Assembly (NCBI GenBank): GCA_001724025.1
Contig: MEDJ01000025.1
Coordinates: 90,289-154,288, forward strand
Source: Acidobacteria bacterium SCN 69-37
GTDB lineage: Bacteria; Acidobacteriota; Vicinamibacteria; Vicinamibacterales; SCN-69-37
Length of the DNA stretch: 64,000 bases
Direction: 5' to 3'
The notes under the pieces were generated by a model that searched no databases, had not been told where the DNA came from, and worked only from the letters and a program-made list of their open reading frames with translations. A program made the translations under genes and the position numbers. Positions 13,977 through 18,996 of the stretch are shown here, piece after piece (position 1 is the first letter of the stretch; the number at the start of each line of letters is the position of its first letter).

Positions 13977-14984
13977 TCACCGTCGTCGCCGCTGCCATTC
14001 GTTGACCGCGCGATTGTGCTCGGTGAGCGTCGAGGAAAAGACGTGCGTGCCGTCGTTGCGACTGACGAAGTAGAGGTACGGCACATTGGCGGGATCGAGC
14101 ACGGCCTCGAGTGCCGACCGGCCAGGCGCGGCAATGGGCCCCGGCGGCAGGCCGGGATTGCGATAGGTGTTGTACGGATGCTCCATCTGGAGATCGCTGC
14201 GCCGGATGTTGCCCGTCCAGCGACCGAGACGCATCATCGCGTAGATCACCGTCGGATCGGTCTGCAGCGGCATCCCGCGCCGCAGACGGTTGAGGAAGAC
14301 GGCCGCCACCATCGGCCGCTCGTCGGGCGCGGCCGTCTCGCGTTCGACGACGGATGCCAGGGTGACAATCTCGCGCAGGCTCAGGCTGCTGGTGTCGGCT
14401 CGGCCGCGCAGGTCGGCGTACACGCGGCGGAACTGGCTCACCATGGCCGCGACCAGTTCGTCGGCGGTCGTCCGGCGCGACACCGTGTAGGTGCTCGGGA
14501 ACAGGTAGCCCTCGAGATCGTCGGCCGCCGGATCCAGATCGCGAATCAGGTCGACGCGACCGGCCGCCGTGCGAAACGATTCGGCCGGCCCGAGCCCGGC
14601 GGCCTCGAACACGCCGGCCATCTCGGGGATCGTGAGCCCTTCGCGAAAGGTGATCGGCAACACGAAGACATCGCCACGCGCGAGCCGGGCCACGACCTCG
14701 GTCGGCGTCGCGGCATCGGCAAAGCGATACTCGCCGGCCTGTAGACGACGCTCCTGACCAGACAGGCGGGCGGCCAGGCGGAACGTCAACGCGTCCGGAA
14801 CGATGCCGGCCGCGGCCAGGCGATCGGCCATGCCCGACACACTGGTGCCAGCCGGCAGCTCGACGAACACCTCCCCGCCGGTGAATCCCCGGTAGGGCGT
14901 GCCGACACGCACGAAGATCCACCAGACCGCGCCAGCGGCCACCAGGGCGAGCAGCACCATCCCCGCGAGCAGTCTCCGGATCAT
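13977..14984 (-). CDS. mltG: Endolytic murein transglycosylase
   Basis: A 335-residue inner-membrane lytic transglycosylase (YceG/MltG) that cuts nascent glycan strands and helps set their length. One N-terminal membrane segment (about residues 5-25), then a LysM-like region, then the catalytic domain with EGYLFPSTYTV, the catalytic-glutamate region SVVERETAAPDE (about 211-222), LQTDPTVIYA and YNTYRNPGLPPGPI. The ATG at 14984 overlaps the ruvX stop (ATGA), which is more likely than the longer in-frame start inside ruvX. It is the second gene of a ruvX-mltG pair. Confidence 0.95.
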   Translation of the reverse strand: MIRRLLAGMVLLALVAAGAVWWIFVRVGTPYRGFTGGEVFVELPAGTSVSGMADRLAAAGIVPDALTFRLAARLSGQERRLQAGEYRFADAATPTEVVARLARGDVFVLPITFREGLTIPEMAGVFEAAGLGPAESFRTAAGRVDLIRDLDPAADDLEGYLFPSTYTVSRRTTADELVAAMVSQFRRVYADLRGRADTSSLSLREIVTLASVVERETAAPDERPMVAAVFLNRLRRGMPLQTDPTVIYAMMRLGRWTGNIRRSDLQMEHPYNTYRNPGLPPGPIAAPGRSALEAVLDPANVPYLYFVSRNDGTHVFSSTLTEHNRAVNEWQRRRR

Positions 14985-15451
14985 TCGTGATTCTCTTGCG
15001 AAGGCGGGCGTGGCGCGGCCTGGCCGTCGAGCCAATCCTGCAGGATCAGCGCCGCTGCCGTGGCGTCGAGCTGCTTCTTGCGCGCGCGCCAGTCCGGCTC
15101 GCGGCGGGCGAGCAGCGCGTCGGCCTCGTGGCTCGTCAACCGTTCGTCCTGCAGATGGACAGGCAGTCCCATGCGATCGACGAGCGCGGCAGCCAGGGCC
15201 TGCGCATCGGCCGTCGCCTGGTTCGCGTCCCCGTTGAGGCGACGTGGCAGGCCGACGACCACGACCTCGACGACGAAGTCATCGAGCGTGGCGCGACGTT
15301 CGCTGTCGAGCCGAACCGCGATCCGATCGGCCGATGCCGCAGGCGTCGGCCCGGCGTCGAGCGTCAGCCAGGGGCGCGCCAGCGTGCCCGAGACATCCGA
15401 CACCGCGAGTCCAATCCGCCGCCGGCCGGCATCAACCCCGAGGATGCGCAT
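14981..15451 (-). CDS. ruvX: Holliday junction resolvase-like YqgF/RuvX nuclease
   Basis: A 156-residue RNase H-fold protein of the YqgF family, linked in E. coli to 16S rRNA 5'-end maturation. The N-terminus ILGVDAGRRRIGLAVSD gives the first acidic residue, VVVGLPRRLNG the second motif, and LQDERLTSHEA with the terminal DATAAALILQDWL the remaining ones. The ATG at 15451 begins the conserved strand; an upstream in-frame start would add about 48 basic, non-conserved residues. It is coupled to mltG by a 4-bp overlap. Confidence 0.92.
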   Translation of the reverse strand: MRILGVDAGRRRIGLAVSDVSGTLARPWLTLDAGPTPAASADRIAVRLDSERRATLDDFVVEVVVVGLPRRLNGDANQATADAQALAAALVDRMGLPVHLQDERLTSHEADALLARREPDWRARKKQLDATAAALILQDWLDGQAAPRPPSQENHE

Positions 15452-15604: not shown

Positions 15605-16783
15605 ATGAACGTCATGTCACCTCGCACCCGCCTGCTGGCCGTCGTCACCTCGACGCCGCTCGTCATCCTCGTGCTCGTCGGTGGCATGCTCGGGGCGGCA
15701 CGGCCGGTCACGGGACAGCAGGGCTTCGACGATCTGCCGGTGCTGCGTGACGTGGTGCGACTGACGCTCGGCGCGTATGTCGAGACACCCGACATCGAGA
15801 AGGTGATGGACGGGGCGATGCGCGGGCTCACCGATCATCTCGACGCCGCGTCGGCATATCTGCCGCCGGACGAGGTGCGGGCTCTCGATGCCGGCACGCC
15901 ACTGCCCGCCGCCACCCCGGGCATCACGGTCAGCAAGCAGTTCTACATCAAGGTCGTCGGGTTGCGCGACGATTCGCCCGCCGCACGGGCCGGGCTGCGC
16001 AGCGGCGACTTCCTCCGCGACATCGACGGTGTGCCGACGCGCGACATGTCGGTCCACACGGCCACGCGCATGCTGGCGGGCCGGGCCGGCTCCGCGGTCG
16101 ATCTGCTGGTCATCCGCACGAACATGGCCGAGCCTCGGGCAATGTCGATCACGCGCGAAGCGCCCGGCACGGTCCGGGCCACGGGACGACGGCTGCCTGG
16201 CGGCGAAGCGTACGTGCGCGTGACGAGCTTCGAGGCTGGAGCGACCGCGCAGATCGCAGCGGCCGTGCACGACCTGGGGACCGCAGCCGCGCCGGGCGTC
16301 CTCATCGACCTGCGCGACGTCGCGGACGGCACGCCGGAGGCCGGCATCGAGGCGGCCCGGCTGTTCGTGGCGTCGGGTACGCTCGCCACGCTGGCGGCGA
16401 AACACGCGGCCCCGACCACGACACCGGCCGCCACGGGCGATGGCGCGCTGACGATGCCGACGGTGCTGCTGGTCTCGAACGGCACGGGCCAGGCCGCCGA
16501 GGTCTTCGCGGCCGCGCTGGCCGACAACGATCGGGCCAGCCTCGTCGGCCTGCCCACGGCCGGCCTCGCCGGCGTGCAGACGCTCGTACGCCTGCCCGAG
16601 GGTCACGGCCTGATGCTCACGACCGCGCGCTACGTCCGGACGGACGGCACGCCCATCCACGAACGGGGGCTGCGTCCAGACACGTTCGTCGACGTTCCCG
16701 TCGTGCCGTTCGATCAAGACCCGCCGGAGGCCGACGCCACGCTGGCGAAGGCGATCGAGGTCCTGAAGGCGCTTCCCCGTTAG
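15605..16783 (+). CDS. S41 (CtpA-like) protease homologue lacking the catalytic Ser/Lys pair
   Basis: A 392-residue secreted or membrane-anchored protein. Hydrophobic segment at residues 9-37, a helical S41 N-terminal region (40-95), a PDZ domain (about 105-175) and an S41 C-terminal core (about 200-390). The core aligns without gaps to C-terminal processing peptidases in GTGQAAEVFAAALADNDRAS and VGLPTAGLAGVQTL. The nucleophilic serine position is Gln296 and the general-base lysine position, 25 residues on, is Leu321. It should not act as a Ser-Lys protease; a PDZ-based scaffolding or regulatory role is inference. It stands alone, upstream of tRNA-Val. Confidence 0.85.
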   Translation: MNVMSPRTRLLAVVTSTPLVILVLVGGMLGAARPVTGQQGFDDLPVLRDVVRLTLGAYVETPDIEKVMDGAMRGLTDHLDAASAYLPPDEVRALDAGTPLPAATPGITVSKQFYIKVVGLRDDSPAARAGLRSGDFLRDIDGVPTRDMSVHTATRMLAGRAGSAVDLLVIRTNMAEPRAMSITREAPGTVRATGRRLPGGEAYVRVTSFEAGATAQIAAAVHDLGTAAAPGVLIDLRDVADGTPEAGIEAARLFVASGTLATLAAKHAAPTTTPAATGDGALTMPTVLLVSNGTGQAAEVFAAALADNDRASLVGLPTAGLAGVQTLVRLPEGHGLMLTTARYVRTDGTPIHERGLRPDTFVDVPVVPFDQDPPEADATLAKAIEVLKALPR

Positions 16784-16854: not shown

Positions 16855-16931
16855 AGGCGCGTAGCTCAGCTGGTTAGAGCGCCTGCTTGACATGCAGGAG
16901 GTCGGCGGTTCGAGTCCGCCCGTGCCTACCA
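16855..16931 (+). tRNA. tRNA-Val(GAC)
   Basis: A 77-nt cloverleaf including an encoded 3' CCA. Acceptor arm AGGCGCG pairs with CGTGCCT (one G-T wobble), the D arm is GCTC/GAGC, the anticodon arm CCTGC/GCAGG encloses loop TTGACAT with anticodon GAC, and the T arm GGCGG/CCGCC encloses TTCGAGT. GAC reads the valine codon GTC (and GTT by wobble). Discriminator base is A. It precedes thrS by about 136 bp on the same strand. Confidence 0.97.
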
Positions 16932-17067
16932 ACCTTCGCCACACGCTCGCTTCGCTCGCGGCTTCGGTTGGCAGGCCGCGCAGGGGGTGCAGTCGCGAGG
17001 TGGTCCACCGAAGCGAACGAGCGTTGTGAGTGGTTTCCGCGTAGGTGGACGGCATCCTCCAGTCTTC

Positions 17068-18996
17068 ATGAGCGACATCACCATCACCCTGCCGGACGGA
17101 TCCGCACACGAGGTGCCTCAGGGCACGTCGGTGCAGGCGTTCGTTCAGGCGCACCTGCCCTCGGGTCTGGCCAGGCGCGCGCTGGCGGCGTCCGTGGGCG
17201 ATCGGCTTGTCGATCTCACGGCCCCGCTCGAGGTCGACGCGCGGCTCCGCGTCCTCACGCCCGAGGGTCCGGAGGCGCTGGCGCTCTATCGACACTCGAC
17301 CGCCCACCTGCTGGCCGCGGCGGTTACGCATCTCTATCCCGGCGTCCAGTGCGGCATCGGCCCGGCCACTGACGAAGGGTTCTTCTACGACTTCGTCGTG
17401 CCGCGCCCGTTCGTGCCCGAGGATCTCGAGCGCATCGAGGCCAGGATGAAGGAACTGGCGGCGGCCGATCTGCCCTACGAGCGGCAGATGTGGCCGCGCG
17501 ACGAGGCCATCGCCTTCTTCCGCGAGCGCGGCGAGCCGTTGAAGGTGCAGTTGATCGAGGAGAAGACCGCGGGTCAGGCCGAGGTCTCCTGCTACACGAT
17601 CAAGGATCGCGAAACGTTCGTCGACTTCTGCGTCGGGCCGCACGTGCCGTCGACCGGCCGCCTGCGGGCGTTCAAGCTCGTGTCCACGTCGAACGCGTAC
17701 TGGAAGGGCGACGCGCGGAACCAGCCGATGCAGCGCATCTACGGGACGGCGTTCTTCAAGGACGACGACCTGAAGCAGCACCTGCACCGGATCGAGGAAG
17801 CGAAGAAGCGCGATCACCGCCGGCTGGGCAAGGACCTCGGGTTGTTCATGTTCCACCCGTGGGCGCCGGGGGCGGCGTTCTGGCTCGGCAAGGGCACGAC
17901 GCTCTATCACCAGCTCGCCGACTACATGCGGTCCGTGCTCTTCCCGGCCGGGTACACGGAAGTCAAGACCCCGCTCATCTTCAACAAGGCGCTCTGGGAA
18001 ACCTCGGGGCACTGGGGCCACTACCGCGAGAACATGTTCCTCGTACAGGCCGAAGACGTCGAGATGGGCGTCAAGGCCATGAACTGCCCGGGGCACATGC
18101 TGGTGTTCGGCAGCGAGACGCGCAGCTATCGCGACCTGCCACTGCGGCTGCACGAGCAGACGCCCCTGCACCGCAACGAGGCGTCGGGCGTGCTCGGCGG
18201 GCTCACGCGCGTCCGGCAGTTCTCGCAGGACGATGCGCACTGCTTCGTGATGGAGTCGCAGATCGGCGAAGAGGTCAAGCGGCTGCTCGGCCTGATCGCG
18301 CGCGTGTACGGCGATCTCGGCCTGACGTTCTCGGTGAAGCTCTCGACCCGGCCGGAGGAGTTCCTCGGCGAGCGGGCCACGTGGGATCACGCCGAGGCAG
18401 AATTGAAGCGGGCGATCGAGTCGGCCGGTCTGGCCTACACGATCAACGAGGGCGACGGGGCGTTCTACGGGCCGAAGATCGACTTCGACGTGACCGACGC
18501 CATCGGCCGGACGTGGCAGTGCGCCACGATCCAGCTCGATTACCAGATGCCGGCGCGGTTCGATCTGACGTACATCGGTCCGGACAATGCGCCCCACAGG
18601 CCCGTGGTCATCCACCGGGCCATCTTCGGCAGCTTCGAGCGGTTCATCGCCCTGCTGATCGAGCACTACGCCGGGGCCTTCCCGCTGTGGCTCGCGCCGG
18701 TCCAGGCCGTGGTGCTGCCGATTGCCGACAGGCACGTCGAGTACTGCCGGGGAGTGGTCGCGCAATTGACGGCGGCCGGCTTCCGCGTGGAGCTCGACGC
18801 GCGGCTGGAGAAGATTGGTTATAAAATCCGGGAGGCCCAGCTGCAGAAGGTGCCCTACATGCTGGTCGTAGGGGATCGTGAAGCAGCCGAGGCGACCGTC
18901 GCCGTGCGCAGTCGCACGGGCGGTGATCTCGGGGCCCGGTCGGTCGACGCGTTCATCACATCGGCTCGAACGGAAGTGGCGACGCGTGGCCGCTGA
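17068..18996 (+). CDS. thrS: Threonine-tRNA ligase
   Basis: A 642-residue class II aminoacyl-tRNA synthetase. Domains in order: TGS (1-62), editing domain with HSTAHLLAAAV and the later zinc-type histidines (65-230), the class II catalytic core with the zinc cysteine in MNCPGHM, motif 2 RNEASGVLGGLTRVRQF and motif 3 with RAIFGSFERFIALLIEH, and the anticodon-binding domain (about 540-640). The ATG at 17068 begins the TGS domain; the longer in-frame extension has no family counterpart. No good Shine-Dalgarno is visible. infC follows 30 bp later, as in many bacteria. Confidence 0.96.
   Translation: MSDITITLPDGSAHEVPQGTSVQAFVQAHLPSGLARRALAASVGDRLVDLTAPLEVDARLRVLTPEGPEALALYRHSTAHLLAAAVTHLYPGVQCGIGPATDEGFFYDFVVPRPFVPEDLERIEARMKELAAADLPYERQMWPRDEAIAFFRERGEPLKVQLIEEKTAGQAEVSCYTIKDRETFVDFCVGPHVPSTGRLRAFKLVSTSNAYWKGDARNQPMQRIYGTAFFKDDDLKQHLHRIEEAKKRDHRRLGKDLGLFMFHPWAPGAAFWLGKGTTLYHQLADYMRSVLFPAGYTEVKTPLIFNKALWETSGHWGHYRENMFLVQAEDVEMGVKAMNCPGHMLVFGSETRSYRDLPLRLHEQTPLHRNEASGVLGGLTRVRQFSQDDAHCFVMESQIGEEVKRLLGLIARVYGDLGLTFSVKLSTRPEEFLGERATWDHAEAELKRAIESAGLAYTINEGDGAFYGPKIDFDVTDAIGRTWQCATIQLDYQMPARFDLTYIGPDNAPHRPVVIHRAIFGSFERFIALLIEHYAGAFPLWLAPVQAVVLPIADRHVEYCRGVVAQLTAAGFRVELDARLEKIGYKIREAQLQKVPYMLVVGDREAAEATVAVRSRTGGDLGARSVDAFITSARTEVATRGR

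Follow-up and report, generated by a model that had tools for sequence, protein, structure and literature searches.

A conserved acidobacterial CtpA paralogue without the Ser-Lys dyad, probably a retained pseudoprotease of the cell envelope

The closest solved relative of the protein described here is CtpA of P. aeruginosa (best sequence match in the PDB, 1.6e-43), a MEROPS S41A peptidase with the partner LbcA, encoded in an operon of the order envC-ctpA-PA5135 (PMC12569750). In vivo, the S302A and K327A substitutions of this enzyme each abolished the activity, H84A lowered it, and Q331A had a minor effect (PMC11021448). CtpA of H. pylori is an active, adaptor-independent protease with Ser300, Lys325 and Gln329. 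In vertebrates, the S41-type fold is reused by RBP3/IRBP, a secreted retinoid binder of two or four tandem modules, which has lost the protease residues and gained a role in the binding of retinoid and fatty acid (PMC11750400). Inactive protease folds are retained for binding or signalling also in MamO, CspC/CspA and the pseudo-orthocaspases, all of protease families other than S41. A bacterial S41/CTP pseudoprotease was not found in a literature search that was thin on subscription journals, and the acidobacterial protein, hereafter pseudo-CtpA, looks undescribed so far.

The window, i.e. the whole stretch of 64,000 nucleotides of Acidobacteria bacterium SCN 69-37 that was analysed, contains an intact open reading frame (0 internal stops) with a product of 392 aa. 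The Pfam matches of the product were Peptidase_S41 (PF03572) at residues 202-360 with 1.7e-29 and PDZ_6 at residues 119-171 with 4.7e-11; both were above the cut-off, which assigns an S41 fold with a PDZ domain to the protein. With the NCBIfam model TIGR00225, 161.6 bits were obtained, which is below the cut-off of 218.6. The features of the gene, all on the + strand, are the following:

15605 to 16783, +: pseudo-CtpA gene, 392-aa PDZ and S41 protein without the catalytic residues (Pfam, alignment)
15620 to 15697, +: N-terminal hydrophobic helix, residues 6-31, putative membrane anchor; Ser16 within the helix is Ser/Thr in 92% of orthologues
15848 to 15850, +: Ala82, at the position of the conserved CtpA His (His84 of P. 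aeruginosa); His in 51 of 51 paralogues and 2 of 100 orthologues
15908 to 16162, +: PDZ domain, approximately residues 102-186; the sensor Arg/Lys position, 158, is Ala
16316 to 16330, +: DVADG, residues 238-242, replacing the xNPGG loop of active CtpA
16490 to 16492, +: Gln296 (CAG) at the catalytic Ser position, codon checked in the sequence
16565 to 16567, +: Leu321 (CTC) at the catalytic Lys position, codon checked in the sequence
16577 to 16579, +: Gln325, the kept third conserved residue, corresponding to Q331 of P. aeruginosa CtpA
16769 to 16783, +: C-terminus ALPR followed by the stop codon; the -AA tail is absent

The PDZ/S41 layout and a similar length are shared with P. aeruginosa CtpA, whereas Ser302, Lys327, His84 and the NPGG loop of that enzyme are all replaced. 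The initial annotation had placed Gln296 and Leu321 at the Ser and Lys positions, 25 residues apart, in a gene otherwise intact with a PDZ domain and an anchor. Both statements were borne out: Ser302 and Lys327 corresponded to Gln296 and Leu321, respectively, with the same spacing of 25 in the two proteins and in agreement with the codons, and the reading frame, the PDZ_6 match and helix 6-31 were as described. The gap-free alignment that was also claimed holds for the catalytic segment, in which the window protein was aligned with SNGTGQAAEVFAAALADNDRASLVGLPTAGLAGVQ of P. aeruginosa CtpA, but not for the full S41/PDZ alignment, which has a few short gaps. The annotation had overlooked that Gln325 is kept and that the His and the NPGG loop are lost as well. 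The window protein thus lacks the Ser-Lys dyad of S41A CtpA/Prc peptidases (Gln296, Leu321) as well as the NPGG loop and active-site His (DVADG, Ala82). Helix 6-31 fits a membrane anchor, and the protein would face the periplasm.

The corresponding positions were surveyed in 100 orthologues, one per genome, picked for spread, hence non-randomly, within a single phylum (Acidobacteria). The dyad was missing in 97 and present in 3. The Ser position was occupied by Gly in 78, Ser in 8, Gln in 3 and other residues in the rest. At the Lys position 16 different residues occurred, with Arg in 28, Leu in 18, Ala in 9, Met in 7 and Lys in 5 orthologues. The active-site His was lost in 98 and found in 2, and Gln was present at the position of Q331 in 74. 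In contrast, the ordinary CtpA of these genomes, a longer paralogue that served as the control, had Ser, Lys and Gln in 51 of 51 sequences and the His in the same number, the NPGG loop and His being invariant or nearly so. As far as the sequences tell, the residues essential for activity are gone from the pseudo-CtpA family, and what it mostly retains is the dispensable Gln. The exact Gln/Leu pair, the conservation of which had been proposed as a check, was found only in the window genome among the genomes read and is not conserved; what is conserved is the loss of Ser and Lys. The Lys position was occupied by Leu or Ile in the window's family and mostly by Arg in the order-mates. The Arg/Lys of the PDZ carboxylate sensor was retained in 48 of the 100 orthologues and is Ala in the window protein, therefore a classic role in the binding of C-terminal tails is weakened for this protein.

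The gene was detected in 175 of 193 genomes of the class at E<=1e-36, so that pseudo-CtpA is nearly universal in its class. At a loose threshold, one that the CtpA paralogue can meet too, an S41 match was obtained in 120 of 120 relatives, and in most of the acidobacterial families searched with a profile, a second S41 protein with a length of about 390-450 aa was retrieved. On contig 23 of the window's genome, three more S41-type genes of other subfamilies were observed (L002, L004, L005), without Lys at the usual position and with one of the three truncated.

In the tree, pseudo-CtpA and CtpA were split by a single branch with an SH-aLRT of 100; the deep forks were weak. Many of the same families clustered inside both clades, and these similar lineage groupings suggest that the duplication predates the split of the sampled lineages. 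Of the 25 closest pairs listed, some of which occur twice because of double locus names, 24 had a dN/dS of 0.08-0.19, and L079/L083 had 0.38; the gene appears to be under purifying selection. The separate clades with similar internal groupings, together with the low dN/dS, point to an old and constrained pseudoprotease. A fold that is kept by prediction, lost catalytic residues and selection that maintains the gene, as expected of a pseudoprotease, are combined in pseudo-CtpA.

These data bear on whether a protease gene is turning into a pseudogene in the window genome. The replacement of both catalytic residues and the missing envC, a neighbour of the gene in order-mates, would agree with such recent decay, which according to the initial annotation would follow if the orthologues of most relatives had Ser and Lys. 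This was checked, and the opposite was found in 97 of 100 orthologues. The reading is also opposed by the spread of the gene through the class, the low dN/dS in nearly all close pairs, the intact reading frame and an identity of 68% within the genus. With conservation across the phylum and low dN/dS, recent decay was ruled out as extremely improbable. The interpretation of the initial annotation, a retained pseudoprotease, is strongly supported by the missing dyad, the near-universal presence in the class and the purifying selection.

Proteolytic activity may persist in some orthologues, because L094, L180 and L181, which belong to one family, keep Ser, Lys and Gln together with an NAGG loop; the His is lost in them. 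Their sister L179 keeps Lys and has Gly at the Ser position. The dyad of these three may be ancestral, with repeated loss elsewhere, or regained: a loss-only model (lnL -7.76), which requires 9 losses, and a reversible one (-7.52) fitted equally well. L212, with Ser and Lys present, Gln lost and NPGG kept, was set aside as a probable member of another S41 subfamily.

The neighbours of the gene in the window are the following:

13977 to 15035, -: mltG/yceG-like endolytic transglycosylase gene (PF02618), adjoining ruvX
14981 to 15451, -: ruvX (PF03652), divergent neighbour
16855 to 16931, +: tRNA-Val (GAC), in the conserved block tRNA-Val-thrS-infC
16987 to 18996, +: thrS, conserved downstream neighbour; reading frame as listed, the true start may be further downstream

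The gene lies between ruvX-mltG and tRNA-Val(GAC)-thrS-infC in genomes of the order and also in several lineages so distant that the identity is about 32%, and this synteny supports orthology. The adjacency of the gene to mltG/ruvX is conserved in several lineages and absent in many; mltG/ruvX was therefore rejected as the functional partner and is regarded as background synteny, since many lineages lack it while envC adjoins the gene.

In most lineages an EnvC-like cell-division gene, encoding a coiled coil and Peptidase_M23, was located directly upstream of pseudo-CtpA. Among the order-mates outside the window's family, envC lay within about 125 bases of the S41 gene in 15 of 16; in the remaining one, G018, the contig ends within the S41 match. 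In 24 of 40 further lineages envC adjoined pseudo-CtpA as well. The order rnc-envC-S41-divergent polysaccharide deacetylase of L105 matches that of the Pseudomonas operon envC-ctpA-PA5135. Because envC is the usual neighbour and this order corresponds, pseudo-CtpA most likely descends from the CtpA of the EnvC operon. LbcA of Pseudomonas is a TPR lipoprotein, and a TPR protein adjoins pseudo-CtpA in some lineages (L101). In many lineages (L065, L079, L101, L110), envC is preceded by the gene of a phosphodiesterase (PF01663, about 700 aa) that looks secreted or like a lipoprotein, and this gene is retained without envC in two subgroups of the window's family. In one family (L087, L088, L098, L107, L118) the gene of a bifunctional PBP1A, a peptidoglycan gene, directly follows pseudo-CtpA.

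The locus in the window differs from this arrangement: envC is not directly upstream, and the window's family is without it. Full-length EnvC was absent in 14 of 14 genomes of this family (G000-G013), and so was full-length FtsX. The 16 order-mates that lie outside the family all gave an EnvC match that clearly exceeded the background of M23 proteins, and their FtsX matches were at 1e-34 or better. The window's family has, by these searches, lost FtsX and EnvC yet retained pseudo-CtpA. EnvC was also absent genome-wide in many other lineages that retain the gene, which rules out a strict dependence on EnvC. EnvC may be an old, though dispensable, partner, and since many EnvC-less lineages retain the gene, the operon link alone is insufficient for deducing the function. 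At G021:C187:42804-43576, EnvC is seemingly in two pieces and may be decaying, whereas the adjoining pseudo-CtpA is intact.

The C-terminus of the orthologues was -AA in 61 of 100 and -KAA in 42 of 100 (e.g. L094, L103, L180, L201), counts that are non-independent due to shared ancestry. The corresponding numbers for -AA were 0 of 51 in CtpA and 3 of 427 in other neighbourhood genes. All four Ala codons are used in these tails, therefore the constraint acts on the protein. The ending, mostly -KAA, was found in most distant orthologues and in none of the window's family. It resembles the nonpolar C-termini that are recognised by CTPs. EnvC-less lineages retain the tail, so a dependence of -KAA on EnvC was ruled out. 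P. aeruginosa CtpA differs in this respect from pseudo-CtpA, many orthologues of which end in -AA and which has a conserved Ser in the membrane helix.

The tail would suit a decoy or brake, in which pseudo-CtpA joins or caps the active CtpA, or offers the -KAA tail to its PDZ domain, and so tunes its activity. An intact, active-looking CtpA paralogue was present alongside in 60 of 60 genomes checked, CTPs work as dimers or hexamers, and the substrate-like ending distinguishes the orthologues from CtpA. However, the identity between the two proteins is only about 30%, their lengths are unequal (392 versus about 550 aa), a common locus was not seen, the window's family is tail-less, and the three orthologues with Ser and Lys have the tail too. 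A decoy or brake is thus considered rather unlikely. That pseudo-CtpA might serve a different C-terminal processing protease as an adaptor or decoy, as the initial annotation suggested, is possible, but the genes around it suggest EnvC and the remodelling of peptidoglycan in the first place.

The AlphaFold2 model of the window protein had a pLDDT of 92.2 and a pTM of 0.86. The CtpAs of H. pylori and P. aeruginosa were matched with Z values of 35-37, the former with the highest score of all (Z 37.5 over 339 residues). With B. subtilis CtpB, Z was 34.9 at 3.2 A for the resting state and 23.7 at 5.9 A for the active state. As the model is nearer to resting than to active CtpB, it suggests, with the usual caution on predicted conformations, that the PDZ domain of the window protein is closed. 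Residues 16, 41, 77, 111 and 114 are conserved in the pseudo-CtpA family and not in CtpA: Ser/Thr 16 in the membrane helix (92%), aromatic 41, acidic 77, Lys/Arg 111 (92%) and aromatic 114. Like the C-terminal tail, these sites hint at a new role.

RBP3/IRBP chains are also among the structural neighbours of the model, at 14-22% identity. By the precedent of this S41 protein, the old cleft could bind a small molecule or lipid, or a migrated catalytic set could make the protein a cryptic enzyme. The variability of the former active site speaks against this, with 16 residues at the Lys position, mostly Gly at the Ser position and a cleft that lacks any newly conserved set of polar residues, and the pseudo-specific conserved sites are located in the anchor, the N-terminal region and the PDZ domain. 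Ligand binding or cryptic catalysis is therefore regarded as improbable.

The explanation preferred here, and held with some confidence, is that pseudo-CtpA is a non-proteolytic, membrane-anchored PDZ-S41 paralogue derived from an EnvC-operon CtpA, and that it binds and holds clients in the envelope. The protein would no longer cleave. Its closed PDZ/S41 body would bind peptidoglycan hydrolases or their regulators, originally EnvC, and the bound clients would be held, positioned or presented, possibly to active CtpA. The persistence of pseudo-CtpA where FtsX and EnvC are lost argues for clients beyond EnvC. As to the function, our best guess is that the protein acts as a non-catalytic PDZ scaffold when peptidoglycan is remodelled. 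It is proposed more tentatively, as a less likely reading, that a dedicated non-proteolytic CtpA serves as a PDZ scaffold throughout the phylum, that its -KAA tail docks to its own PDZ or that of active CtpA, that activity was lost repeatedly and in parallel from an ancestor in the EnvC operon, and that the protein outlived FtsEX-EnvC in several lineages.

Such proteins are labelled as S41 peptidases by Pfam; if they are dead enzymes, most sampled acidobacterial genomes have a mislabelled regulator of the cell envelope. The phylum would then also present a natural series from the full Ser-Lys dyad through Gly and Lys to complete loss, in which a processing protease turns into a scaffold. Pseudo-CtpA may provide a direct handle on the control of peptidoglycan hydrolases where FtsX and EnvC are absent.
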